From: Ilumatobacteraceae bacterium
Lineage (GTDB): Bacteria; Actinomycetota; Acidimicrobiia; Acidimicrobiales; Ilumatobacteraceae
Direction of reading: 5' to 3'
DNA: 64,000 bases
Assembly: GCA_033344875.1 (NCBI GenBank)
Contig: JAWPMO010000001.1
Span: 1,265,595-1,329,594, forward strand
The translations under genes were made by a program, and so were the position numbers. This document shows, one piece after another, positions 23,679 to 54,742 of the stretch. The notes below the pieces were generated by a model that saw nothing but the letters and a program-made list of their open reading frames with translations, had not been told where the DNA came from and ran no database searches. Positions within the stretch are counted from its first letter, which is position 1. Every line of letters starts with the position of its first letter.

Positions 23679-24365
23679 ATGACGCCACCCACCACACCGA
23701 TCGAGGACAGCACCGTCGAACAGGTGGTCAACTTCGTCCGCGACGGCATCATCCGCGGCGATTTCCCGCCGGCGTCGAAGTTGCTCCCCAAGCAGATCGC
23801 CGAACAGTGCGGCACGAGTTTCATCCCCGTCCGCGAGGCGCTGAGGGCGCTCGAATCCGAAGGCTTCGTCAACTTCGTCCACAATCGCGGGGCGTGGGTC
23901 ACGCCGCTGTCCAAGGCCGACCTGCTCGACATCTACACGATCCGTATCGAGCTCGAAGGCGAGGCGGTCAGGCGTGCGTCGGCATTCACCGACGACGACA
24001 TCAGCGCCCTGGAGGAAACCCTCGCCCGCCTCGGCGACCGCCACGAGCACCACGACCATGCCGGCGTGGTGGCGCTCAACCGTGAGTTCCATTTCTCGAT
24101 CTACCGCAAGGCAGGCTCGCCCCGCCGCCTCAAGCTGATCGATCAGCTCTGGATGCATTCGGCCCGGTACCAACGCCTCGTCCTCGACCATCGCGACGAC
24201 GGCGCCGACGCCGAACACCGCGAGATGGTGGCCAAGCTCCGACAGGGCGACCACGAGGGAGCGGCGAGAGCACTACGGACGCATCTCGAGTCGACGGTCG
24301 AGCTGATGAGCGCCGACATCGAGGCCGCGACCGACGAGCGCACCGACTCCCCCGCCGGCGCCTGA
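23679..24365 (+). CDS. GntR-family regulator, FadR (FCD) subfamily
   Basis: 228 residues. The N-terminal winged helix (VVNFVRDGIIRGDFPPASKLLPKQIAEQCGTSFIPVREALRALESEGFV, residues 16-64) has the GntR PVREAL recognition signature. An all-helical FCD ligand domain follows, with metal/ligand residues in LNREFHFSIYRKAG, HREMVAKLRQGD and ARALRTHLE. FCD regulators usually sense sugar acids, hydroxy acids or amino acids. First gene of the catabolic island and immediately upstream of a FAH-family hydrolase, so it is the best candidate local repressor. A hairpin terminator follows it. Confidence 0.92.
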   Translation: MTPPTTPIEDSTVEQVVNFVRDGIIRGDFPPASKLLPKQIAEQCGTSFIPVREALRALESEGFVNFVHNRGAWVTPLSKADLLDIYTIRIELEGEAVRRASAFTDDDISALEETLARLGDRHEHHDHAGVVALNREFHFSIYRKAGSPRRLKLIDQLWMHSARYQRLVLDHRDDGADAEHREMVAKLRQGDHEGAARALRTHLESTVELMSADIEAATDERTDSPAGA

Positions 24366-24395: not shown

Positions 24396-24430
24396 TATAT
24401 TCTTGGTCGGCATCGTCGGACGGACGATGC
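24396..24430 (+). promoter_or_regulatory. promoter of the FAH-family gene with a 5' hairpin
   Basis: TATATT (24396-24401) is a clear -10. GCATCGTC-GGACG-GACGATGC (24410-24430) then forms a perfect 8-bp hairpin starting about where transcription should begin. Two other island promoters also have a hairpin at the very 5' end of the transcript. No good -35 is seen, so activator dependence is possible. Confidence 0.45.
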
Positions 24431-25394: not shown

Positions 25395-25449
25395 GACGAG
25401 CGGCAATTGTTATAATGTTCGCTCAGGCCGGTCGAACCGATCGGCCACC
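25395..25449 (+). promoter_or_regulatory. promoter with conserved leader block, upstream of the first RidA gene
   Basis: TATAAT (25411-25416) is followed 13 bases later by GGTCGAACCGATCGGCCACC (25430-25449). The same arrangement occurs at 43061-43116, with closely similar flanking bases (GAC.AG at the left edge). GGCCGGTCG and CGATCGGCC (25426-25446) can pair as a 5' hairpin with one G-U. A shared operator or leader RNA element is inferred. Confidence 0.55.
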
Positions 25450-25478: not shown

Positions 25479-25913
25479 ATGGGAGCACAGGCCAACGCCA
25501 CCGCCAAGGGATTGGACTTGTCGCCGATCGAATCCGGTTACCTCGCGATGTGCGTGCAGAGCGGGTCACTCATCCACACGAGCGGCCACGTGTCGACCAC
25601 CAAGGGCGTGCTCGGCAAGGACGTCACGGTCGAGCAGGGCTACGAGGCAGCCCGTGACTGCGCCGAGAAGATCCTGCGGTCGGTGCACCACCACCACGGT
25701 TCGCTCGACGGCCTGCGCGTCGTGAAGCTCCTCGGCGCCGTGTACTCGGCACCCGACTTCACCGATCACCACCTGGTGATCAACGGCGCCTCCGACCTGC
25801 TGCACGAACTGTTCGGCGACGATCTCGGCTACCACGCCCGCAGTGCACTCGGCTTCGCCGCACTCCCCACCGGGGTCGCGGTCGAGATCGAGGCGATCTT
25901 CGAAGTCGTCTGA
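25479..25913 (+). CDS. RidA/YjgF-family protein 1 (active-site Arg present)
   Basis: 144 residues. The core runs LIHTSGHVSTTKG...QGYEAARDCAEKILRSV...VVKLLGAVYSAPDF and ends GYHARSALGFAALPTGVAVEIEAIFEVV. The Arg in HARSALG corresponds to the catalytic Arg of RidA, which hydrolyses reactive enamine/imine intermediates released by PLP dehydratases. Its stop overlaps the ATG of a D-aminoacylase (TGATG), giving a two-gene operon. That coupling and a D-serine-dehydratase-type gene elsewhere in the island point to a role in D-amino-acid deamination. Confidence 0.9.
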   Translation: MGAQANATAKGLDLSPIESGYLAMCVQSGSLIHTSGHVSTTKGVLGKDVTVEQGYEAARDCAEKILRSVHHHHGSLDGLRVVKLLGAVYSAPDFTDHHLVINGASDLLHELFGDDLGYHARSALGFAALPTGVAVEIEAIFEVV

Positions 25914-27520
25914 TGCCGATGTTCGACGTTCTGATCACCAACGGCCTCGTCGTCGACGGAACCGGACAACCCGCCTTCGCTGCGGATGTCGCGATCAACG
26001 GTGAGCGGATCGTCGCGGTCGGCGACCTCGCCCAGGCCGAGGCCGGCCGCACGATCGACGCAACGGGCATGGTGGTCTCCCCCGGATTCATCGACATCCA
26101 CACACACTCGGACCTGACCCTGCTCGTCGAGCCGTTCGGCATGAGCAAGATCCGCCAGGGCGTCACGACCGAGGTCAGCGGCAACTGCGGATACAGCCCC
26201 TACCCGGTCGCCCCCGATCATGCCGACGAGCTCCGCGAACTGCTGAGCAGCGGACTCCACGGCGAGTCGGTCGACTGGGTCTGGAGCGACCTGGCCGGCT
26301 ACCGCGACTTCGCTGCCGAACGCGGGCTCGGCATGAACGTCGCGCCGCTGGTCGGTCACGGTGCCGTCCGTGGCGCCGTGGTCGGGTTCGAAGACCGCCG
26401 TGCCACCGCCGATGACGTCGCGGGCATGCAACGGTTGGTGTCGGAATCGATGGAGCAGGGCGCGTTCGGCCTCTCGACCGGCCTCACCCTGACGCCCAGC
26501 GCCTATGGCGACACCGAGGAGATCGTCGCGCTCGCCGAGGCGATGTCGCACTTCCCCGGCCGCTTCTACACCAGCCACACCCGACTCTGGGCCGGCTGGC
26601 ACATCAAGGGCGTCGCCGAAGCGATCGACATCGGTCGACGGGCGAACGTGCCGGTCCAGGTCTCGCACATGGCGGTCAACGACCCGCCCTACTGGGGGCA
26701 GGCCGACACGGTGATCGCCGTCTGTGAAGACGCCGTCACCGACGGGTTCGATGTGACCTTCGACGTGTACCCGTACGCGGCGAGCAGCAGCGGGTTCGCC
26801 CAGTGCATCCCGACGTGGGCGCAGTCCGGCGGGACGCAGGCACTCCTGCAACGGCTGCGCAACCCGAACGAACGCGCCCGGATCCGGGCCGACATGCTCG
26901 AAGAGGGGCTGTTCCGAGGCTGGCCGTGGTTGTGGGACCGACTCCAGGTCAGTGCCGCACACACGCGCGAGGTCAGCGAGTTCGAAGGCATGTCGTTCGA
27001 GCAGGCGGGCGAGAAGATGGGCCTCGAACCGATCGATGCCGCACTCACCCTGATGGAACGCGACGAGGCGAAGCTGCGGATCATCTTCTACTACCGCACC
27101 GAGGAGGACATGAAGTCGTTCCTCCGGCATCCGATGGGCATGATGGGTTCGGACGGACTGGCGATCCAGGCGTCGGGTCCGCTCGGCGCCGGTCGGCCAC
27201 ACCCGCGCTCCTACGGCGCCCACAGTCGAGTGCTCGGCCTGTATGTCCGCGACACCGCCGTACTCACGATGGAAGAGGCGGTGCACAAGATGAGCGGACA
27301 GGTCGCGACGCGCCTCGGCATGTCGGACCGCGGCGTGATCGCCGCCGGCAACATCGCCGACATCGCGATCTTCGATCCGGACACCGTCGCCGATCGGGCC
27401 AGCTTCGAAGATCCGCACCAGTACGCGGTCGGCGTGCCGTACGTGCTGGTCAACGGCGAGGTGGTCGTGGCCGAAGGCGAACACACCGGCGCACTGCCGG
27501 GCCGCGTACTCGCCGCGTAG
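25913..27520 (+). CDS. N-acyl-D-amino-acid deacylase (D-aminoacylase) paralogue 1
   Basis: 535-residue amidohydrolase that should free D-amino acids from N-acyl conjugates. Visible metal and catalytic positions of the D-aminoacylase group: HTH at 63-65, Cys93 in SGNCGYS, His in FYTSHTRL, His in VQVSHMAV, and the catalytic Asp in MMGSDGLAI. The beta-sandwich ends are intact (LITNGLVVDGTG at the start, VLVNGEVVVAEGEHTG at the end). Closest in form to paralogue 3 (shared PWLWDR and FYYR/FYRSEDD blocks). ATG 25913 overlaps the RidA stop; ATG 25919 is an alternative. Confidence 0.9.
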   Translation: MPMFDVLITNGLVVDGTGQPAFAADVAINGERIVAVGDLAQAEAGRTIDATGMVVSPGFIDIHTHSDLTLLVEPFGMSKIRQGVTTEVSGNCGYSPYPVAPDHADELRELLSSGLHGESVDWVWSDLAGYRDFAAERGLGMNVAPLVGHGAVRGAVVGFEDRRATADDVAGMQRLVSESMEQGAFGLSTGLTLTPSAYGDTEEIVALAEAMSHFPGRFYTSHTRLWAGWHIKGVAEAIDIGRRANVPVQVSHMAVNDPPYWGQADTVIAVCEDAVTDGFDVTFDVYPYAASSSGFAQCIPTWAQSGGTQALLQRLRNPNERARIRADMLEEGLFRGWPWLWDRLQVSAAHTREVSEFEGMSFEQAGEKMGLEPIDAALTLMERDEAKLRIIFYYRTEEDMKSFLRHPMGMMGSDGLAIQASGPLGAGRPHPRSYGAHSRVLGLYVRDTAVLTMEEAVHKMSGQVATRLGMSDRGVIAAGNIADIAIFDPDTVADRASFEDPHQYAVGVPYVLVNGEVVVAEGEHTGALPGRVLAA

Positions 27521-29860: not shown

Positions 29861-29889
29861 TTGACCGGCGTTCACCGGGACAGTATGGT
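29861..29889 (+). promoter_or_regulatory. sigma-70-type promoter of the Dpp operon
   Basis: TTGACC (29861-29866) and TATGGT (29884-29889) are separated by 17 bases, the best housekeeping promoter match in the island. Transcription should start near 29896, giving a leader of about 60 bases before the small ORF at 29959. Confidence 0.65.
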
Positions 29890-29958
29890 TCCACGCACTG
29901 AAACTTGGGGCACTGTGAATGACACGGACAGGGCCTGCATGACACGGGAAGGGACAGG

Positions 29959-43060: not shown

Positions 43061-43116
43061 GACCAGTGCCCAAATAGTATAATATGCGAGCCGGAGTGGT
43101 CGAACGGTCGGCCACC
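43061..43116 (+). promoter_or_regulatory. promoter with conserved leader block, upstream of the SDR-cupin-RidA-UxuA operon
   Basis: TATAAT (43078-43083) is followed 14 bases later by GGTCGAACGGTCGGCCACC (43098-43116), nearly the same as at 25430-25449. GTGGTCG (43096-43102) and CGGCCAC (43109-43115) can form a 7-bp hairpin around AACGGT. The upstream GAC.AG edge is shared with the promoter at 25395. Confidence 0.55.
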
Positions 43117-43128
43117 GACGGGAGGATC

Positions 43129-43938
43129 ATGTCGGAGTTCGGGGACGGCAACACGGTGGCCGACACCGGACCGGACGCGAACCGTCCCTCCACTCCCCCG
43201 GCCGGGTGCGTCGTGATCACCGGAGCCGCCAGCGGGATCGGTCGCGCCGTGTACGAGATGCTGCTCGAGCGACGACCCGACGTACAGCTCGGACTCGTCG
43301 ACCTCGACCACGTCGGATTGAACGAGATCCGGTCCGCACATCCGGACCGGACCCGAGTCGTCGCCTGTGACGTGTCGGAGCGCGACGCGCTCGCGTCGGC
43401 GATCGACACGATCGCCGACGGACTCCCGATCGTCGGCCTCGTCACCGCCGCCGGCATGCTCCACCAGCGCGACAGTGTCGAACTCGACGGGGGCGACTGG
43501 TCGGCGATGCTGGGAGTACACCTCGACGGCACGCTGTGGGCAGCGCAGGCCGCCGCTCGTTCGATGACCGCCAACGGTGGCGGCGCGATCGTGAACTTCT
43601 GCTCGGTCGCGATGGAGTTCGGCTGGCCCCGGCGCCTGCCGTACGCCGTCGCGAAGGCCGGCGTCGCCGCGATGACGCGCACGCTGGCGGTCGAATGGGC
43701 CGACCGGGGCATCCGGGTCAACGCCGTGGCGCCCGGCTACGTCGATACGCCGATGATCCGCGGGGCACATGCCGCGGGGGCGCTCGATGCCGACGAGAAG
43801 GCGCGCGCCCACGCACTGGGGCGCTTGGCACAGCCGGCGGAAGTCGCGGAGGTCGTCGAGTTCCTCCTCTCCGACCGAGCGTCGTTCGTCACCGGCGAAG
43901 TCGTTCGGGTCGACGGCGGCTACACGGTACTGAAATGA
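43129..43938 (+). CDS. SDR-family oxidoreductase 2, candidate fructuronate/mannonate dehydrogenase
   Basis: 269 residues: VITGAASGIGRAVYEML, VTAAGMLHQRDSV, catalytic Ser in NFCSVAMEFG, YAVAKAG (Tyr-x3-Lys), VNAVAPGYVDTPMIRG and the final VTGEVVRVDGGY. The start is set by a GGAGG Shine-Dalgarno (43121-43125) before ATG 43129; an ATG at 43084 is in frame but overlaps the promoter block. First gene of an operon ending in mannonate dehydratase, so it may supply mannonate from fructuronate. That assignment is contextual. Confidence 0.88.
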   Translation: MSEFGDGNTVADTGPDANRPSTPPAGCVVITGAASGIGRAVYEMLLERRPDVQLGLVDLDHVGLNEIRSAHPDRTRVVACDVSERDALASAIDTIADGLPIVGLVTAAGMLHQRDSVELDGGDWSAMLGVHLDGTLWAAQAAARSMTANGGGAIVNFCSVAMEFGWPRRLPYAVAKAGVAAMTRTLAVEWADRGIRVNAVAPGYVDTPMIRGAHAAGALDADEKARAHALGRLAQPAEVAEVVEFLLSDRASFVTGEVVRVDGGYTVLK

Positions 43939-43960: not shown

Positions 43961-44377
43961 ATGAGCAAGATCGTCATTCGGAACATCGACGAGATGGTCG
44001 ACGAGGCGGTCGCCGCGCTCGCCTCCGGGGGCACAGCGAAGCATCCGCTGATCGAGGGGCGGATCGTCGCCGTGTTCGCCACCCCGGACGACGAGACGTC
44101 GGCGCGCATGGCGATGGGCGTGAGCGTGCTGCCGCCGGGGTATTCGACGCCGGCCCACCACCACCCGGCCGAGGAGTTCGCGACGGTCGTCCGGGGCACG
44201 GGCTCGATCACGATCGACGGCGAGGTCGTGGCGGTCGCACCCGGCGATCTGGTGGTCACGCCGCCCGACTCGGTGCACGTCACCACGTCGTCCGCCGACG
44301 AACCGCTCGTCATCCACTGGTCGTACGGCCCGGCCGGCAGCGAACAACGCTGGCTGCAAACAGGAGGAAACTCGTGA
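43961..44377 (+). CDS. cupin-domain protein
   Basis: 138 residues with both cupin motifs complete: PAHHHPAEEFATVVRGTGSITIDG (His, His, Glu) and GDLVVTPPDSVHVTTSSA (final His). It is therefore a metal-binding single-domain cupin, possibly a sugar-acid isomerase or a small dioxygenase. Second gene of the SDR-cupin-RidA-UxuA operon; a GAGGAGC Shine-Dalgarno precedes it and it overlaps the next start by 4 bases. Confidence 0.87.
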   Translation: MSKIVIRNIDEMVDEAVAALASGGTAKHPLIEGRIVAVFATPDDETSARMAMGVSVLPPGYSTPAHHHPAEEFATVVRGTGSITIDGEVVAVAPGDLVVTPPDSVHVTTSSADEPLVIHWSYGPAGSEQRWLQTGGNS

Positions 44378-44775
44378 TGGAACGAACCGGCATCGCTGCC
44401 AACCGATCGTGGTCCAAGGTCGCCTATTCGAGGGCGGTCCGGTTGGGCAACCTGATCGAAGTGGCCGGCACCACGTCGAGCGGGCCCGGTGGTGAGATCC
44501 TCCACCCCGGCGACATGTACCGACAGGCGAGCGAGATCTGCGGCATCATCGCCCGATCGATCGAAGAACTCGGCGGCAGTGTCGACGACGTCGTACGTAC
44601 CCGAGTGTTCGTCACCGACATCTCCCAGTGGGAGGCGGCCGGACTCGCCCACCACGAAGCCTTCGGCCACATGGAGCACCCGCCGGCCAGTGCGTTCTAC
44701 GGCATCAAGGAACTCCTGCATCCCGACCTCCTGATCGAGATCGAGGCCACCGCCGTCGTGGAGCACGATTCATGA
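44374..44775 (+). CDS. RidA/YjgF-family protein 2 (active-site Arg absent)
   Basis: 133 residues: VRLGNLIEVAGTTSSGPGG, DMYRQASEICGIIARSIEELGGSVDDVVRTRVFVTDISQWE, and the end ASAFYGIKELLHPDLLIEIEATAVV. At the position of the RidA catalytic Arg the protein reads PASAFYG, as in the non-deaminase Rid subfamilies. A different hydrolytic or binding role is therefore likely. AGGAGG precedes the GTG at 44374; the adjoining ATG at 44377 is possible. It overlaps uxuA by 4 bases. Confidence 0.88.
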   Translation: MMERTGIAANRSWSKVAYSRAVRLGNLIEVAGTTSSGPGGEILHPGDMYRQASEICGIIARSIEELGGSVDDVVRTRVFVTDISQWEAAGLAHHEAFGHMEHPPASAFYGIKELLHPDLLIEIEATAVVEHDS

Positions 44776-45725
44776 AACTCGCGTCCGTACTCACCCCCCT
44801 CTCGCACGAGAACCTGACACTGGCGGCCCAGACCGGTGTCTCGGAGATCGTGGTCAGGTACCCGGGACCCGATCTCTCGCAGATCGACGAGCTCAAGGCT
44901 CGCATCGAGTCGTACGGCATGCGGCTCGGCGTCGTCGAGGGCTACCTCCCGATCGAGAACATCAAGCTGGGCCGCGACGACGGCACCGAGATGGCACAGA
45001 TGAAGGCATTGATCCGCCACCTCGGAGCGATCGGTGTTCCGATGATCTGTTACAACTTCATGGCCGGCACCGACTGGATCCGAACGAGCATCGACGCCCC
45101 CGAGCGCGGCGGCGCCAAGGTGACCGCTTTCGACCTCGCCGACCTGGAGAGTGCCAGGATCCCCGGACGCGAACCGTTCAGGGCATCGCTCGAACCCGGC
45201 GCGAAGGGCGACCAGCTCTGGAGCAACCTGGAGGCGTTCCTGACCGAGATCATCCCGGTCGCCGAGGATGCCGGGGTGATCATGGCGATGCACCCCGACG
45301 ACCCGCCGCTCCCCACACTGCTCGGCAACGAGCGGGTCATGCACTGCGTCGAGGGCTTCGAACGGCTGGTCGAGTTGGTACCGTCGCCCTCCAATGCGAT
45401 CGCGTTCTGCCAGGGCACGTTCTCGGAGATGGGGATCGACATCCCGGCAGCGATCCGGCGACTCGGCAAGCACATCGCGTACGTCCACTTCCGCGACGTT
45501 CGCGGCACCGCCGAATGCTTCACCGAAACCTGGCAGGACACCGGCCAGACCGACATGGTCGAGGCGATGCGCGCCTACCGAGAGGTCGGTTTCGACGGCC
45601 CGATCCGACCGGATCACGTTCCGCAGCTGATCGGCGAGGACGACGGCGAGCCGGGCTACACGATGCTCGGACGCCTGTTCGCGTTCGGCTACACCCGCGG
45701 GCTGATGGACGCGACCGAGAGCTGA
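44772..45725 (+). CDS. uxuA: mannonate dehydratase (UxuA family)
   Basis: 317 residues, shorter than the roughly 390 of E. coli UxuA. The family core is unmistakable: PMICYNFMAGTDWIRT, IIPVAEDAGVIMAMHPDDPPLP, FCQGTFSEMG, YVHFRDVRG, a TWQDTGQTDM segment and IRPDHVPQL with metal-ligand His/Asp/Cys. It dehydrates D-mannonate to 2-dehydro-3-deoxygluconate, which the KDG kinase and KDPG aldolase 6-7 kb upstream take to pyruvate and triose phosphate. Last gene of its operon, with ATGA overlap. Confidence 0.9.
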   Translation: MKLASVLTPLSHENLTLAAQTGVSEIVVRYPGPDLSQIDELKARIESYGMRLGVVEGYLPIENIKLGRDDGTEMAQMKALIRHLGAIGVPMICYNFMAGTDWIRTSIDAPERGGAKVTAFDLADLESARIPGREPFRASLEPGAKGDQLWSNLEAFLTEIIPVAEDAGVIMAMHPDDPPLPTLLGNERVMHCVEGFERLVELVPSPSNAIAFCQGTFSEMGIDIPAAIRRLGKHIAYVHFRDVRGTAECFTETWQDTGQTDMVEAMRAYREVGFDGPIRPDHVPQLIGEDDGEPGYTMLGRLFAFGYTRGLMDATES

Positions 45726-45749: not shown

Positions 45750-46196
45750 TCAGCTCGGGCGGACGGCGATCACGTCGACCTCGAACTTCAACGTCGGAGG
45801 CAAGCAGTTGGTGATCGTGCTGCGCGCCGGCAACGGCGCGCTGAAGAACTCGTGGTAGAGCTCGTTGTAGCGCGGACCGTCGGCGGCGTCGTGCAGATAG
45901 CTGGTCACGCGGACCACGTTGCGCATGGTGAGCCCGGCGGACGCCAGCACCCCCTCGACGTTGGCGAACGACCGCCGCATCTCTTCTTCGAAGGTTCCGG
46001 AGATGATCGCACCCGTGTTGTCGACCGACGCCTGTCCGGAGACGAACACGAAGCCGTTGGCCTCGACGGCCGGGGGAAACGGCAGATGACTCGAGATCTC
46101 CGATTCGATCGACGTCCACCCCCTGTCCGCGGCGTCGCTGGAGGTCTCGGCGTGCGCGCCGGTGTGCGGGGAATCGTCGTTCGTTTCAGTGCTCAC
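45750..46196 (-). CDS. RidA/YjgF-family protein 3 (active-site Arg present)
   Basis: 148 residues from GTG 46196; an ATG at 46220 would add 8 residues. After a polar N-terminus the core reads VEANGFVFVSGQASVDNTG, then MRRSFANVEGVLASAGLTMRNVVRVTSYLHD, and ends PLPARSTITNCLPPTLKFEVDVIAV. The Arg in PARSTI is the RidA catalytic Arg. Transcribed divergently from D-aminoacylase 3 over a 140-base region, again pairing a Rid protein with a D-aminoacylase. Confidence 0.88.
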   Translation of the reverse strand: MSTETNDDSPHTGAHAETSSDAADRGWTSIESEISSHLPFPPAVEANGFVFVSGQASVDNTGAIISGTFEEEMRRSFANVEGVLASAGLTMRNVVRVTSYLHDAADGPRYNELYHEFFSAPLPARSTITNCLPPTLKFEVDVIAVRPS

Positions 46197-46227
46197 GAGA
46201 CGGACCGTACCAGCATTCATCCAGTGG

Positions 46228-46250
46228 ATCGTCCGTTTCAATTCTGTGGT
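46228..46250. promoter_or_regulatory. shared ATCGTC-GTTTCAAT element in the RidA3/D-aminoacylase 3 divergent region
   Basis: ATCGTCCGTTTCAAT (46228-46242) reappears, one base shorter, as ATCGTCGTTTCAAT at 50831-50844, between the D-serine-dehydratase-type and DUF3604 genes. In both places GTG(G/A)TA follows 3-4 bases later. A shared operator or unusual -35 is inferred. Confidence 0.45.
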
Positions 46251-46336
46251 ACCGTCATCGCCGACGATGCGATCGATCGGCAACCGGTCGGACGACGTCA
46301 TCGTTCGTCCGTCCGATCCATCACTGCGAGGACACC

Positions 46337-47929
46337 ATGTTCGACCTGATCATCCGCAACGCCATCGTGATCGACGGCACGGGTTCACCCGGCACGCCGG
46401 GTGACGTCGGTATCGCCGACGGCCGAATCACCGCCGTCGGCACGGTCGAGGGCGAAGCGGCCCGCACGATCGACGCGGCCGGACGGGTCGTGTGCCCGGG
46501 TTTCATCGACATCCACACCCATTCCGACCTCACCCTCGTCGCCGACGGGATCGGCGAGAGCAAGCTCCGTCAGGGCGTGACCACCGAGGTCGTCGGCAAC
46601 TGCTCGTTCGCCGCGTTCCCGATCGAACCCGAACGCCTCGAACTCCACGCCGACCACCTCGCTCGAGCGACTGCGCCGATCACGCCGTGGTGGACCGATT
46701 TCGACGGGTACGCCGACGCCCTCCAGGAGCAGGGGCTCGCGATCAACGTCGCACCGCTGGCCGGCCACGGCACCCTGCGGGTCGCCGCCATGGGTGTCGA
46801 CCAACGACCGGCGACCCCCGACGAGATGGCGCGCATGGAACAGGATCTCGATCACGCTCTCGAGCAGGGCGCGTTCGGCATGAGCACCGGGCTCACCCAC
46901 GTGCCGAGCGCCTACGGAGACTTCGACGAGGTCGCCGCACTGGCCCGCGTCCTCGCCGCCCGCGGAGCGCTCTACGCCACCCATGCCCGCTCGGTCCCCG
47001 AGACACGGTTCGGCGAGGTCCTCGAAGCGATCGACATCGGCCGACAGACCGGCGTCACCGTCGAGTTCAGCCACCTCGCGATCAACCGACCCGAGAGTTG
47101 GGGCGACGGCGCCGAACTGTTGGCGCTGTTCGACACCGCCCGCGAGGAAGGCATCGACATCTTCTTCGACGTCTACCCGTACGACGCCTCCTCGTCGTCG
47201 CTGACGCAGTACCTCCCACCGTGGGTGCAGGCCGGCGGCACCGAGGCGATGTGTGCACGACTCGCGATCCCCGAGGAACGACAGCGCGCACTCGACGACA
47301 TGGCCGACGGCTGGTTCGGCGGCATCCCGTGGCTCTGGGACCGCTTCCTGGTGAGCAGCAGCCCCGACGGCTACGGCATCGCCAAGACACTCGAGCAACT
47401 GTCGGCCGACGAGGGGATCGAGCCGTACGAGCTGACCCTGCAGCTCTGCGAGCGCTACGGCAACGAACTTCAGGTCGTGCTCTTCTACCGGAGCGAAGAC
47501 GACGTCGCCAAGTTCCTCGCCCACCCCCTGTCGGTGATCGGATCCGACGGCAACGCGATTCCGCTCCACCAGCCGACGGCGTGCCCGCACCCCCGCAACT
47601 TCGGCACGTTCCCTCGGGTTCTCGGCGTGTACGCCCGCGACAAGGGCGTGCTGCAACTCGCCGACGCCGTGAAGAAGATGACGGCCGAGCCGGCCCGACG
47701 GTTGGGACTCCCCGACCGTGGCACGCTCGCGGTCGGTGCGGTCGCCGACCTCGTGATCTTCGACCCCGACACCGTGATCGACAACTCGGAGTTCGGCCAG
47801 GACGCCGGCGCGCCCGTCGGCATCGACGTCGTCATCGTCGGCGGCAGCGTCGTCCTCGACCACGGGACGATCGGCGCGGAGCGTCCGGGCCGAGTCCTCC
47901 GCAAGACCCCGACCCCCGTCGCCTCCTGA
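46337..47929 (+). CDS. N-acyl-D-amino-acid deacylase paralogue 3
   Basis: 530 residues. DIHTHSD (His60, His62), VVGNCSFAAFP (Cys89), LYATHARSVPE, VEFSHLAINRPESWG and VIGSDGNAI give the complete D-aminoacylase metal/catalytic set. WLWDRFLVSS and LFYRSEDDVAKFLAHP match paralogue 1, so these two are the closer pair. A GAGGA Shine-Dalgarno precedes ATG 46337. It is followed after 28 bases by M81 peptidase 2 on the same strand, forming a peptidase-deacylase operon. Confidence 0.91.
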   Translation: MFDLIIRNAIVIDGTGSPGTPGDVGIADGRITAVGTVEGEAARTIDAAGRVVCPGFIDIHTHSDLTLVADGIGESKLRQGVTTEVVGNCSFAAFPIEPERLELHADHLARATAPITPWWTDFDGYADALQEQGLAINVAPLAGHGTLRVAAMGVDQRPATPDEMARMEQDLDHALEQGAFGMSTGLTHVPSAYGDFDEVAALARVLAARGALYATHARSVPETRFGEVLEAIDIGRQTGVTVEFSHLAINRPESWGDGAELLALFDTAREEGIDIFFDVYPYDASSSSLTQYLPPWVQAGGTEAMCARLAIPEERQRALDDMADGWFGGIPWLWDRFLVSSSPDGYGIAKTLEQLSADEGIEPYELTLQLCERYGNELQVVLFYRSEDDVAKFLAHPLSVIGSDGNAIPLHQPTACPHPRNFGTFPRVLGVYARDKGVLQLADAVKKMTAEPARRLGLPDRGTLAVGAVADLVIFDPDTVIDNSEFGQDAGAPVGIDVVIVGGSVVLDHGTIGAERPGRVLRKTPTPVAS

Positions 47930-50900: not shown

Positions 50901-53075
50901 ATGTTCGAACTCGTCGTAGACCACTCGGGAGCGCTGGGGACGGTTCGCTCGACCTGCCCATCGCCGGCCGAGGCCGGTTCGATCGCCAGCTGGGTCGTCT
51001 CGGTCGAGACCACACGGACGCTCGACACCGGAAGCCGACTGGCGTTCGCGCGCCGGTGGCCGAGCGACTGGGGCGCGCCACAGGCCGACGACCCGGAGGC
51101 CGCCGACTTCTTCACGGTCGAGACGCCGAGCGGTGTCCCCCTCCGGTGGTGGACGGAGGTCGTGTACCCGTGGCACCCGTTCGACCACGTCATCCACGTC
51201 GAGGCGCTGGCACCGATCGCTGCCGGCGAGCGGATCGAACTCCGGTTCGGCGACGACCGGCGGGGGTCGCCCGGGGCGAACATCCAGACGTTCATCGAGG
51301 AGGCATCGCCGCTCAGCGTCCGGGTGCGGCCCGGCCGGGACGACGACTGGGTCGAGATCGACCGGATCGAGGTCGCCGTCCAGGGAACCGCGGCCCACCT
51401 GCTCGTGGCGACCGCACCCAGCAAGGTCGAGCTCGGCGAACCGTTCGAGATCCACCTCCGGGTCGAAGACCGGTGGGGCAACCCCGCATCCGACGTCGAT
51501 GCCGAGTTCGAGATCATCGGCGCCGACGCCACGGGCCGGGTGAGTTCGGGCGAGGGCAGCTTCGCCCGGATCGAAACCGTGCTGTACGACGCCGGTGTGC
51601 ATCGCCTGACCGTCCGCCACGTCGACGGCACACTCTCGGCGACCACGAACCCGATCGACGTCGGCACGCACCACGAGACGCTCCTGTACTGGGGCGACAT
51701 GCACGGGCAGTCGCTCGTCGGGTGCGGCGCACGCTCGGTCACGAACTACTTCCGGCATGCCCGGGACTTCGCCGGCTGCGACGTCGGCAGCCACCAGGCG
51801 AACTGCTACATGGTCACCACCGACGAGTGGGCCGAGACCGAGTCCGTCACGAGCCGGGCACACGAGCCCGGTCGCTTCGTTCCGCTCCTCGGCGTGGAGT
51901 GGTCGGCCCTCACCCCGCTCGGTGGCGACCGCAACATCTATTTCCCGGGCGACCGCGCACAGCTCCGACGCTGCAGCCACGAGTTCGTGAGCGACCTGTC
52001 GGATCTCGACACCGACCTTCCGCACGTCGACAACCTGCACGACCATTACCGCGACCGGGACGTGATCATCGCGTTGCACGTCGGCGGGCGCACCGCGAAC
52101 CTCCGGTTCCACGATGCAGCGATCGAGCGGTTGATCGAAGTCCACTCGACCCACGCGACGTCCGAGTGGTTCATGCTCGACGCACTGGAGCGCGGCTACC
52201 GGATGGGCGTGGTCGCGGGGAGCGACGGCGTCGACGGCCGGCCGGGCGCCAGCCATCCCGGACACATGGCGGTCCGCAACGTGCGCGGTGGACTCACGGC
52301 GTTCGCGCTACCCGAACTCACGCGGGATGCGCTGTGGACGGGTATGTACGAGCGTCGGTGCTACGCCACGACCGGCGAGCGGATCCTGCTCGACTTCGAC
52401 TGCGACGGACATCCCTACGGCACCGAGTACACGGCCGCGGGCGCACCGACGATCAGCTACCGGGTCGAAGGCACCAGTGCGCTCGACCAGGTCGAGATCT
52501 GGCGTGGCACGGAAAAGATCCACGACGTGGCGGTCGAACCCACCGACCCGACGCCCTCCGACGTCGTCCGGGTCTCGTGGCGAGGGACGACCTCACGCGG
52601 CAACTGGCGACAGGCCCGCATGGTCTGGGACGGGTCCGTGCGGCTCGACGGAGCACGGATCACCGAGGCCTCGGGCCACGCGTTCGACTCACCCGACGAG
52701 GGCCTGACCACCTGGTCCCCCACCGAGGCGCATTGGCGTTCGGTCACCGCCGGCGATTGGGACGGCATCACGCTCCGGCTCGACGACGTGCAGCCCGACG
52801 GCGGCCGACTCGAGTTCACGAGCGACCCCATGAGCTTCACCGCTCCCCTCGCCGGCCTCGACGAGCAGCCGATGATCGTCCGGGCCGACGACCCGGCACG
52901 CACCGTACGGGTGGAGCGCCTGCCGCTCGGATTGCCCGCGCCGACCGCCGTGGGCAGCTTCGTCGATCCCGACCCGCGGCCGGGATGCAATGCGTACTGG
53001 CTCCGAGTGCTCCAACACGATGGCGGCCAGGCATGGTCCAGCCCCGTGTTCGCCTCGTTCCCCGTCGACACCTGA
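50901..53075 (+). CDS. DUF3604-family (PHP-like) protein
   Basis: 724 residues. An N-terminal beta-rich part (about 1-255) is followed by the DUF3604 core beginning LLYWGDMHGQS near residue 260. This is a PHP-phosphoesterase-like start with metal-binding Asp/His; DVGSHQANCYMVT, LLGVEWSALTPLGGDRNIYF, IALHVGGRTAN and VVAGSDGVDGRPGAS follow. The C-terminus is beta-sandwich. No signal peptide is seen. The family is a frequent neighbour of catabolic clusters in marine bacteria but its reaction is not established. Shares an upstream element with the D-aminoacylase 3 locus. Confidence 0.83.
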   Translation: MFELVVDHSGALGTVRSTCPSPAEAGSIASWVVSVETTRTLDTGSRLAFARRWPSDWGAPQADDPEAADFFTVETPSGVPLRWWTEVVYPWHPFDHVIHVEALAPIAAGERIELRFGDDRRGSPGANIQTFIEEASPLSVRVRPGRDDDWVEIDRIEVAVQGTAAHLLVATAPSKVELGEPFEIHLRVEDRWGNPASDVDAEFEIIGADATGRVSSGEGSFARIETVLYDAGVHRLTVRHVDGTLSATTNPIDVGTHHETLLYWGDMHGQSLVGCGARSVTNYFRHARDFAGCDVGSHQANCYMVTTDEWAETESVTSRAHEPGRFVPLLGVEWSALTPLGGDRNIYFPGDRAQLRRCSHEFVSDLSDLDTDLPHVDNLHDHYRDRDVIIALHVGGRTANLRFHDAAIERLIEVHSTHATSEWFMLDALERGYRMGVVAGSDGVDGRPGASHPGHMAVRNVRGGLTAFALPELTRDALWTGMYERRCYATTGERILLDFDCDGHPYGTEYTAAGAPTISYRVEGTSALDQVEIWRGTEKIHDVAVEPTDPTPSDVVRVSWRGTTSRGNWRQARMVWDGSVRLDGARITEASGHAFDSPDEGLTTWSPTEAHWRSVTAGDWDGITLRLDDVQPDGGRLEFTSDPMSFTAPLAGLDEQPMIVRADDPARTVRVERLPLGLPAPTAVGSFVDPDPRPGCNAYWLRVLQHDGGQAWSSPVFASFPVDT

Positions 53076-53135: not shown

Positions 53136-53912
53136 TCAGTCGCTCAGGAAGTCACGGACGAGCTCGAGGCCGACACGTCGCATCTGCTTGACGACCGCCG
53201 GCACCTTGTCGATCGTCAGACGCAGCGCCGGTGCGCTCACGCTGATACCGCACGGGAAGGGCATGCCTTGGAGCGCGAGGGCGACACATCGACCGTCGTC
53301 CTGGTTCTCCAGTTCGTCGATCGCGTATCCCTGTTTGCGGACGACTTCGAGTTCGGCCAGGTAGGCGGCCGGATCGGTGATCGTGTGCTCGGTGAAGGGC
53401 TGCATGTCGATCGCGTCGAGCATCGCGAGCACACGATCGTTGGGGAGCTCGGCCGACATCGCCTTGCCCAGTGCCGTCGAATGGATTGGTGCGCGGTCGC
53501 CGACGCGCGCCGCGAGGCGCATCATCTGCGGGCTCTCGTACACCAGGCTGTGGACCACCATCGGGCCGTCGAGGGTGCCGAGATTCGTCGTTTCCCCCGT
53601 GTCGTCACGCAGCTGCCGGAGCGGGCCTTCGGCGTGCGACAGGAAGGCCTCGAACTGCCGGGTGTTCTGCGGTTGGAAGGCGAGGCCGATCCGATACAGG
53701 GCGGTCTCGTCGTCGCGCTCGACGTAGCGCCGGGCCTCGAGGGCCGACAGGTACCGGAAGGCCGAGCTCTTCGGCAGCGAGGTCACCGCGGCGACATCAG
53801 GGAGTGAAACACCCTCGCGCGACCGCTGCAACACGTCGAGGATGTCGCAGACGCGCTCGACCGCTCGGATCGGGTAGGCGGTCGCACGGTCGTTGGTGGT
53901 TGTCGCTGACAC
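53136..53912 (-). CDS. IclR-family transcriptional regulator
   Basis: 258 residues: N-terminal winged helix (AVERVCDILDVLQRSREGVSLPDVAAVTSLPKSSAFRYLSALEARRYVERD, residues 17-67), then the IclR effector domain with RAPIHSTALGKAMSA, YAIDELENQDDGRCVALAL and ISVSAPALRLT. IclR proteins usually respond to aromatic or aliphatic carboxylates and sit beside the genes they control. It starts with GTG at 53912 and closes the right end of the catabolic island. Candidate regulator of the shared elements at 46228 and 50831. Confidence 0.93.
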   Translation of the reverse strand: MSATTTNDRATAYPIRAVERVCDILDVLQRSREGVSLPDVAAVTSLPKSSAFRYLSALEARRYVERDDETALYRIGLAFQPQNTRQFEAFLSHAEGPLRQLRDDTGETTNLGTLDGPMVVHSLVYESPQMMRLAARVGDRAPIHSTALGKAMSAELPNDRVLAMLDAIDMQPFTEHTITDPAAYLAELEVVRKQGYAIDELENQDDGRCVALALQGMPFPCGISVSAPALRLTIDKVPAVVKQMRRVGLELVRDFLSD

Positions 53913-54249
53913 AATCGGCTTCCTAGCGTTGGTTCCGGTCGACGCCGCCGCAGGGCGGCGGAGAACATCTCTGGGGCGCCGTCCGGTCGATGCCGAACGA
54001 CGTCGGAATTTTCCTCGCGTTCTCCATACTTCGGACCTCCGTCACGTTTCGCTCCTCGGAATGCGCACCGCAAAACCCGACCAGTTCATCGAGCGGTCGA
54101 GAAAACAGCATGCTGGCAGCCACATTAGAACCATCTCGTCCGACTGCCTGACATCCGACGAAATACGCCCGAAACAACACGCTCCACGTTCGACCCGCGA
54201 CGCCCGGCGGTCGACGCTCGACGCAGCGTCGCTCCGCCGACGGATCTAC
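53913..54249. other. 337-base non-coding stretch upstream of the IclR gene
   Basis: No convincing gene on either strand. It contains GGAATTTTCC (54005-54014), an AT-rich inverted repeat with GGAA/TTCC arms that could be an IclR operator. The base pattern lacks the codon periodicity of its neighbours. Most of it looks like decayed sequence leading into the amidohydrolase remnant. Confidence 0.5.
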
Positions 54250-54669: not shown

Positions 54670-54742
54670 TGGAGCTAAGGAGAATCGAACTCCTGACCTC
54701 CTCCATGCCATGGAGGCGCTCTACCAACTGAGCTATAGCCCC
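54670..54742 (-). tRNA. tRNA-Ala, anticodon GGC
   Basis: 73 bases. The acceptor stem GGGGCTA pairs with TAGCTCC (one G-U), with discriminator A at 54670 and no encoded CCA. D-arm AGCTCAGTTGGTAGAGC; anticodon stem CCTCC/GGAGG around loop ATGGCAT (anticodon GGC); T-arm AGGAGTTCGATTCTCCT. It lies at the right border of the catabolic island, beside a nuclease-like gene, a typical integration landmark, though no duplicated 3' end was found nearby. Confidence 0.97.

Follow-up and report, generated by a model that had tools for sequence, protein, structure and literature searches.

A sequence block shared downstream of two TATAAT promoters in a catabolic gene cluster of an Ilumatobacteraceae bacterium: a candidate operator

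The genome consists of one contig of 4,968,626 bases (4.97 Mb). The stretch analysed here, hereafter the window, comprises 64,000 nucleotides (C1:1265595-1329594) and has a G+C content of 67-70%. Two promoters lying 18 kb apart in this one genome are the subject of the analysis (Table 1). Site 1 is followed by a ridA gene and by a gene for an amidohydrolase, presumably D-aminoacylase-like, and site 2 by genes for a short-chain dehydrogenase (SDR), a cupin protein, a second RidA and a protein of the mannonate dehydratase family. A Ribonuc_L-PSP (RidA) gene is indeed found behind each site, as had been claimed from the sequence. The third ridA gene of the cluster (45750-46301, minus strand) has neither TATAAT nor the block described below in its vicinity, according to a search of the window.

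Table 1. Coordinates of the promoter elements, predicted structures and genes; positions are those of the window unless a locus of the congener G003 is given.
Feature	Position	Strand	Basis or remark
Site 1, promoter -10 box TATAAT	25411..25416	+	sequence; among 7 genome occurrences
Site 1, shared block GGTCGAACCGATCGGCCACC	25430..25449	+	pattern search of window and genome
Site 1, FadR-like core CGGT-CGA-ACCG	25429..25439	+	by inspection; differs from TKGT-N3-ACMA (accessible part of PMC4494728) at 2 positions
Site 1, predicted stem-loop, 9 pairs, 3-nt loop	25426..25446	+	fold, -16.2 kcal/mol
Site 2, promoter -10 box TATAAT	43078..43083	+	sequence
Site 2, shared block GGTCGAACGGTCGGCCACC	43098..43116	+	pattern search of window and genome
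Site 2, FadR-like core TGGT-CGA-ACGG	43097..43107	+	by inspection; differs from TKGT-N3-ACMA (accessible part of PMC4494728) at 2 positions
Site 2, predicted stem-loop, 8 pairs, 4-nt loop	43096..43115	+	fold compared with shuffles
ridA1 (Ribonuc_L-PSP), first gene behind site 1	25479..25913	+	ORF and Pfam
Amidohydrolase, second gene behind site 1	25913..27520	+	ORF and Pfam
SDR, first gene behind site 2	43129..43938	+	start codon chosen by eye; longest ORF from 43084
Cupin protein, second gene behind site 2	43961..44377	+	ORF and Pfam
ridA2 (Ribonuc_L-PSP), third gene behind site 2	44374..44775	+	ORF and Pfam
UxuA-type protein, fourth gene behind site 2	44772..45725	+	ORF and Pfam
Rrf2 protein	22025-22513		gene upstream of site 1, at about 3 kb
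GntR/FCD regulator	23679..24365	+	PF00392, PF07729; first candidate reader of the block
IclR regulator	53136..53912	-	Pfam; likely operator is another motif; disfavoured as reader of the block
GTTYCR-N5-YGRAAY palindromes	29888-29904, 54046-54062; G003 L010:12325-12341, L121:2277-2293		conserved between this genome and G003

Both promoters carry the -10 hexamer TATAAT, and 13-14 bases further downstream a nearly identical block of 19-20 nt, so that these two elements of the original prediction stand. The window contains TATAAT only at sites 1 and 2, where shuffled sequences lead one to expect 0.37 occurrences. In the 4.97 Mb of the genome the hexamer occurs seven times at six places, two of which are these sites; it is rare, yet with ten occurrences of the reversed control pattern it is not clear that it is avoided. 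The combination with the block is found nowhere else. GGTCGAAC-N2/3-TCGGCCA at 13-14 bases past TATAAT is confined in the genome to sites 1 and 2, and genome-wide searches with GGTCGAACN{1,4}TCGGCCA and with TATAATN{10,18}GGTCGA each returned these two sites as the only matches. A scan with CAANTNNTATAATNTNCG, a pattern derived from the two sites themselves, likewise found both without mismatch and nothing more at one or two mismatches; at up to three mismatches there were 23 matches, against 35 for the reversed control. Genome-wide, the exact block has no third copy.

The likeness of the two sites is unevenly distributed. The -10 boxes agree in 6/6 positions and the blocks in 18/20 columns, with a difference in length of one base in the middle of the block, while the spacers agree in only 6/14 and the upstream parts in 12/21 positions. 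The upstream edge GAC.AG, which had been proposed as a further common element, is not significant, since the upstream part was matched or bettered by 2,389 of 20,000 random pairs. The leaders downstream of the boxes have an in-register score of 15 (shift of at most 1), whereas the scores of the remaining pairs of the seven TATAAT leaders (20 of 21) run from 2 to 6. Among random pairs from the same genome a score of at least 15 was reached by 1,167 of 9,751,596 (about 1.2e-4), a slight undercount because only pairs with a common 6-mer in the band were scored. A second run gave 12/60,000, with overlapping draws not excluded. These nulls, and the one for the upstream part, were drawn from the window plus 40 kb of flanking DNA, by inference mostly coding. 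The pairing of TATAAT with the block is real and non-random, the likeness is centred on these two elements and not spread as in a recent copy, and among the genomes searched the complete promoter and leader element is present in this one only.

The best explanation appears to be that sites 1 and 2 serve as control regions for two catabolic operons of one cluster. Each would combine an unusually strong consensus -10 box with the same operator of about 20 bp, situated within the first 10-30 bases transcribed from the predicted start. A repressor bound to this operator would block promoter clearance at two otherwise strong promoters until an inducer, perhaps a pathway intermediate, is present. 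The most plausible repressor would be the FCD-type GntR protein, encoded by a gene whose start lies 1.7 kb before site 1. That GntR reads an operator just downstream of the two promoters is a reading that we favour tentatively, and it may well turn out to be wrong. The uniqueness of TATAAT plus block in 4.97 Mb, the low frequency of equally good in-register pairs and the concentration of identity in the -10 box and the block rather than in the spacer and upstream part all count for an operator.

The case for GntR in particular is circumstantial, and GntR is best regarded as the first protein to test. The most conserved octamer of the blocks, GGTCGAAC, holds a GT-N3-AC core of the FadR type, and TCGGCCACC could then be an accessory half-site. 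According to the accessible part of PMC4494728, GntR regulators of the FadR subfamily (FCD) bind TKGT-N3-ACMA, in which GT and AC usually stand 3 nt apart, and a weaker additional half-site is often present at a distance of 7-12 nt to the centre; a further operator sequence of this subfamily, TNGTNNNACNA, is given in the accessible part of PMC2230225. The sites resemble such operators in having the core in both blocks and a possible accessory box nearby, and the cluster itself includes a gene for an FCD-GntR. GT and AC boxes 3 nt apart occur as GGT-CGA-AC at 25430-25437 and 43098-43105, a feature of low information given that GGTCGAAC alone is found 23 times in the window (TCGGCCACC eight times). 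The full TKGT and ACMA boxes are present at neither site, where CGGT/ACCG and TGGT/ACGG deviate by two mismatches each, and exact matches in the window (N2 or N3) are restricted to 11919 and 57428, away from the sites. Unlike the operators described in that part of PMC4494728, the blocks are G+C-rich and not A/T-rich. Nor is there an autoregulatory copy in this genome, since no block was found in the region upstream of gntR or in the gap between gntR and the FAH gene. The lack of a third exact block, the lack of a block at gntR and the mismatches in the core count against GntR, as does the one-base difference in length within the block, which is awkward for a rigid dimer. A search for GGTCGAACN{1,4}TCGGCC in the loci of relatives gave 0/14. 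The gap between gntR and the FAH gene contains, at 24396-24430, another promoter-like box, TATATT, and downstream of it the inverted repeat GCATCGTC..GACGATGC, which resembles an early hairpin.

Relatives offer one informative comparison. When the first amidohydrolase was compared with 60 relatives, four had a match at E<=1e-100, and the congener G003 was the only one with a close orthologue (86%). G003 has retained much of the cluster in order, with RidA1 90% and SDR 68% identical, and is the sole congener with which the RidA1 and SDR promoters were compared. A protein of 724 aa encoded at 50901-53075, which has no Pfam match at E<=1e-8, is also 72% identical there. Conservation in relatives, which the original prediction had named as a check, was found only in part. 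TATAAT plus block is absent from both G003 promoters. Homology upstream of ridA1 is clear until about 25 bases before the start codon, and further upstream CGAAATGATCGGC in the G003 leader matches CGAACCGATCGGC of site 1 in 11/13 positions, at a somewhat different distance from a -10-like TATGGT. A match at least as good was seen between the site 1 leader and 46 of 1,500 random G003 stretches (about 3%), and the block may be partly present at this promoter. The G003 SDR promoter shows no trace of it, the best 13-mer agreeing in 8/13 positions.

Orthologues of GntR were detected in 7 of 148 relatives at E<=1e-30, and none in G003, the genome of which is 98% complete. Full block and GntR are both present here and both absent in G003, which would fit GntR as the reader, but this is effectively one comparison, and the 11/13 match that stays at ridA1 where GntR is lacking weakens the argument from joint loss. 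As G003 has no detected orthologue, it does not decide on a GntR operator, and loss of the operator together with its regulator is there inseparable from plain turnover. In G002 the contig with the cluster ends before the target genes would appear. In G033, G092 and G089 at least one gene related to those of the cluster is located close to the GntR orthologue, which speaks for GntR. A search for RidA1 and SDR in 397 genomes of the order found each in 1/397, namely in the present genome, G003 evidently lying outside this sample. Scanning 13 relatives' loci (L131 left out) for a loose dyad with an A+T filter and an upstream TANNNT gave ten rows, none of which was judged to be a promoter copy; one, GGTCGAACGCGCCACC in L011, lies inside an MlrC-like gene. 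Upstream of the gntR orthologue of G002 (L125) there is a palindrome of 20 bp, CGCCATGGTCGACCATGGCG, that has TGGTCGA in common with the blocks, and TTGTTACACCA is found about 100 bases upstream of the G101 orthologue (L128). Both fit TKGT-N2/3-ACMA, but they were not used as GntR operators because they lie at the end of the preceding amidase-like gene and the other orthologues are without them. The window itself contains nine palindromes of at least 16 bp.

IclR had been suggested as another possible reader of the block. This did not hold up, because a different motif, conserved at two other promoters, is the likely IclR operator. IclR is kept in G003 with 83% identity. In orthologous intergenic regions the promoter of an ABC transporter has the palindrome GTTCCACGCACTGAAAC (29888) in this genome and GTTCCACGCAGTGAAAT in G003, and the region upstream of iclR has GTTTCGCTCCTCGGAAT (54046) and GTTTCACTCCTCGAAAT, respectively. 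The pattern GTTYCR-N5-YGRAAY, drawn from these palindromes, has exact matches in the window at 29888 and 54046 only. It is found at nine distinct places in the genome (14 rows, against two rows for the reversed control), one of which, read by eye, is just upstream of the start of another, putative IclR gene. The two cluster sites agree with the consensus of IclR group 1 operators, GKTYCRYW3-4RYGRAMC, given in the accessible part of PMC8222616, and judged from motif and position they likely constitute an autoregulated IclR regulon. Sites 1 and 2 contain neither an exact nor a one-mismatch match, and their block is a different sequence from that consensus; IclR is therefore disfavoured as its reader. 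The G003 ridA1 promoter has a one-mismatch copy of the palindrome over TATGGT (L010:3314-3330), one of five in the 20-kb locus, a weak hint that ridA1 may be under different regulators in the two congeners. Site 1 as a decayed IclR site was dropped for want of a second half-site. GTTTCA with a partly conserved stretch occurs in both genomes upstream of two more operons (window 46235 and 50837; L011:12615 and 17167), those of an amidohydrolase at 46337 and of the gene at 50901; these are perhaps weaker IclR half-sites.

The arguments for a DNA operator stand without naming the regulator, and it is conceivable, though on the unlikely side, that a transcription factor other than GntR and IclR reads the block, for example Rrf2, encoded nearby upstream of site 1, or a protein encoded elsewhere. 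Positive evidence points to no particular protein, and none links Rrf2 to these operons. If GntR is the reader, GntR and IclR would split the promoters of the cluster between them, and the control of a little-studied catabolic cluster with RidA proteins, amidohydrolases and MlrC-type proteins would be defined. The uncharacterised FCD-GntR would acquire a testable operator, and G003 would exemplify how regulatory sites change between congeners along with the regulator gene. A more far-reaching version would see a switch of two operons that is specific to this lineage: its regulator would read a G+C-rich element downstream of the start that is coupled to rare consensus TATAAT boxes, and such boxes would be tolerated where a roadblock further down keeps the promoter shut; in full this seems rather improbable. 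Literature on promoter work in Ilumatobacter, presumably a related genus, as far as its accessible parts go, yielded work on rifampicin resistance only.

The original prediction had left the choice between an operator and an RNA element, both blocks being said to form hairpins. Of this, the non-random pair centred on -10 box and block was borne out, while the RNA part came out weak. Both leaders do fold, with stems of 8-9 bp that begin within about 10 nt of the expected start. For the 28-nt stretch at site 1 none of 200 shuffles folded as well (z -4.5), whereas at site 2 the fold is no better than its composition allows (23/200 shuffles as good, z -1.2). The stems pair in different registers and it is the primary sequence that the sites share, which is better explained by recognition of DNA than by a conserved RNA structure. 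5'-terminal stem-loops of the ompA type stabilise mRNA, and the leaders are similar in having a stem-loop near the expected 5' end; they differ in that the register of the stem is not conserved between the two copies and that site 2 does not rise above its shuffles. Rfam 15 gave one sub-threshold match at site 1 (mir-2235, minus strand, 16.4 bits against 61) and nothing at E<=1 at site 2, so that no family exceeds its cut-off at either, and in the whole window one tRNA was found at gathering scores. A stem-loop protecting or regulating both mRNAs is for these reasons improbable.

That the likeness arose by chance, from two GC-rich leaders made of words common in the genome, has a small probability. 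Counting both strands, the window has 271 copies of GGTCGA and 193 of TCGGCC. When the register is ignored, 57 of 40,000 random pairs of 40-mers, taken from the window alone and by inference mostly coding, are as good, and each leader scores higher with other stretches of the window. Sites 1 and 2 form the best of all pairs that can be made from the 58 window leaders headed by TANNNT, but one unrelated pair reaches 14, and many pairs were available for the original prediction to choose from. The block alone consists of common words of this genome; it is the place beside TATAAT and not its letters that makes the pair significant. Against chance, the window has no TATAAT besides the two of this in-register pair, which occupy two of the six places in the genome, and over the genome-wide TATAAT set the expectation is about 21 x 1.2e-4 = 0.0025.

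Chance matches away from start sites, which had been named as a possible refutation, are not found for the full block, but loose forms abound. With up to three mismatches, the genome has on both strands 2,808 matches at N3 spacing (reversed control 506) and 857 at N2 spacing (reversed control 197). They were rejected as further members: among 60 loci looked at, one has a -10-like hexamer (4/6) 9-19 bases upstream, and in 0/60 does the upstream stretch exceed 50% A+T. The dyad GGTCGAN{3,6}TCGGCCA was likewise set aside as background, being present in 126 of 149 genomes, this one included. TATAATN{10,18}GGTCGA has a match in 12 of the 149, again including this one, and in 0 of the 9 other congeners. 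Scanning one genome each of 84,980 species by pattern gave 11 stretches, taken as chance; none is from a record titled as an actinobacterium and none comes from the present genome, which was possibly left out.

A short promoter segment copied between the operons and then diverged would explain likeness by descent more than by a common regulator, and the same -10 box at the same offset, unique in the genome, would fit, as would the partial match at G003 ridA1 with site 1 as the older copy, but the divergent spacer and an upstream part not above random pairs mean that any copy must be old, with the functional parts alone remaining, and this origin is very improbable.

A tRNA gene (54670-54742, minus strand, RF00005) is situated at the cluster's far edge and may mark the boundary of an acquired segment.
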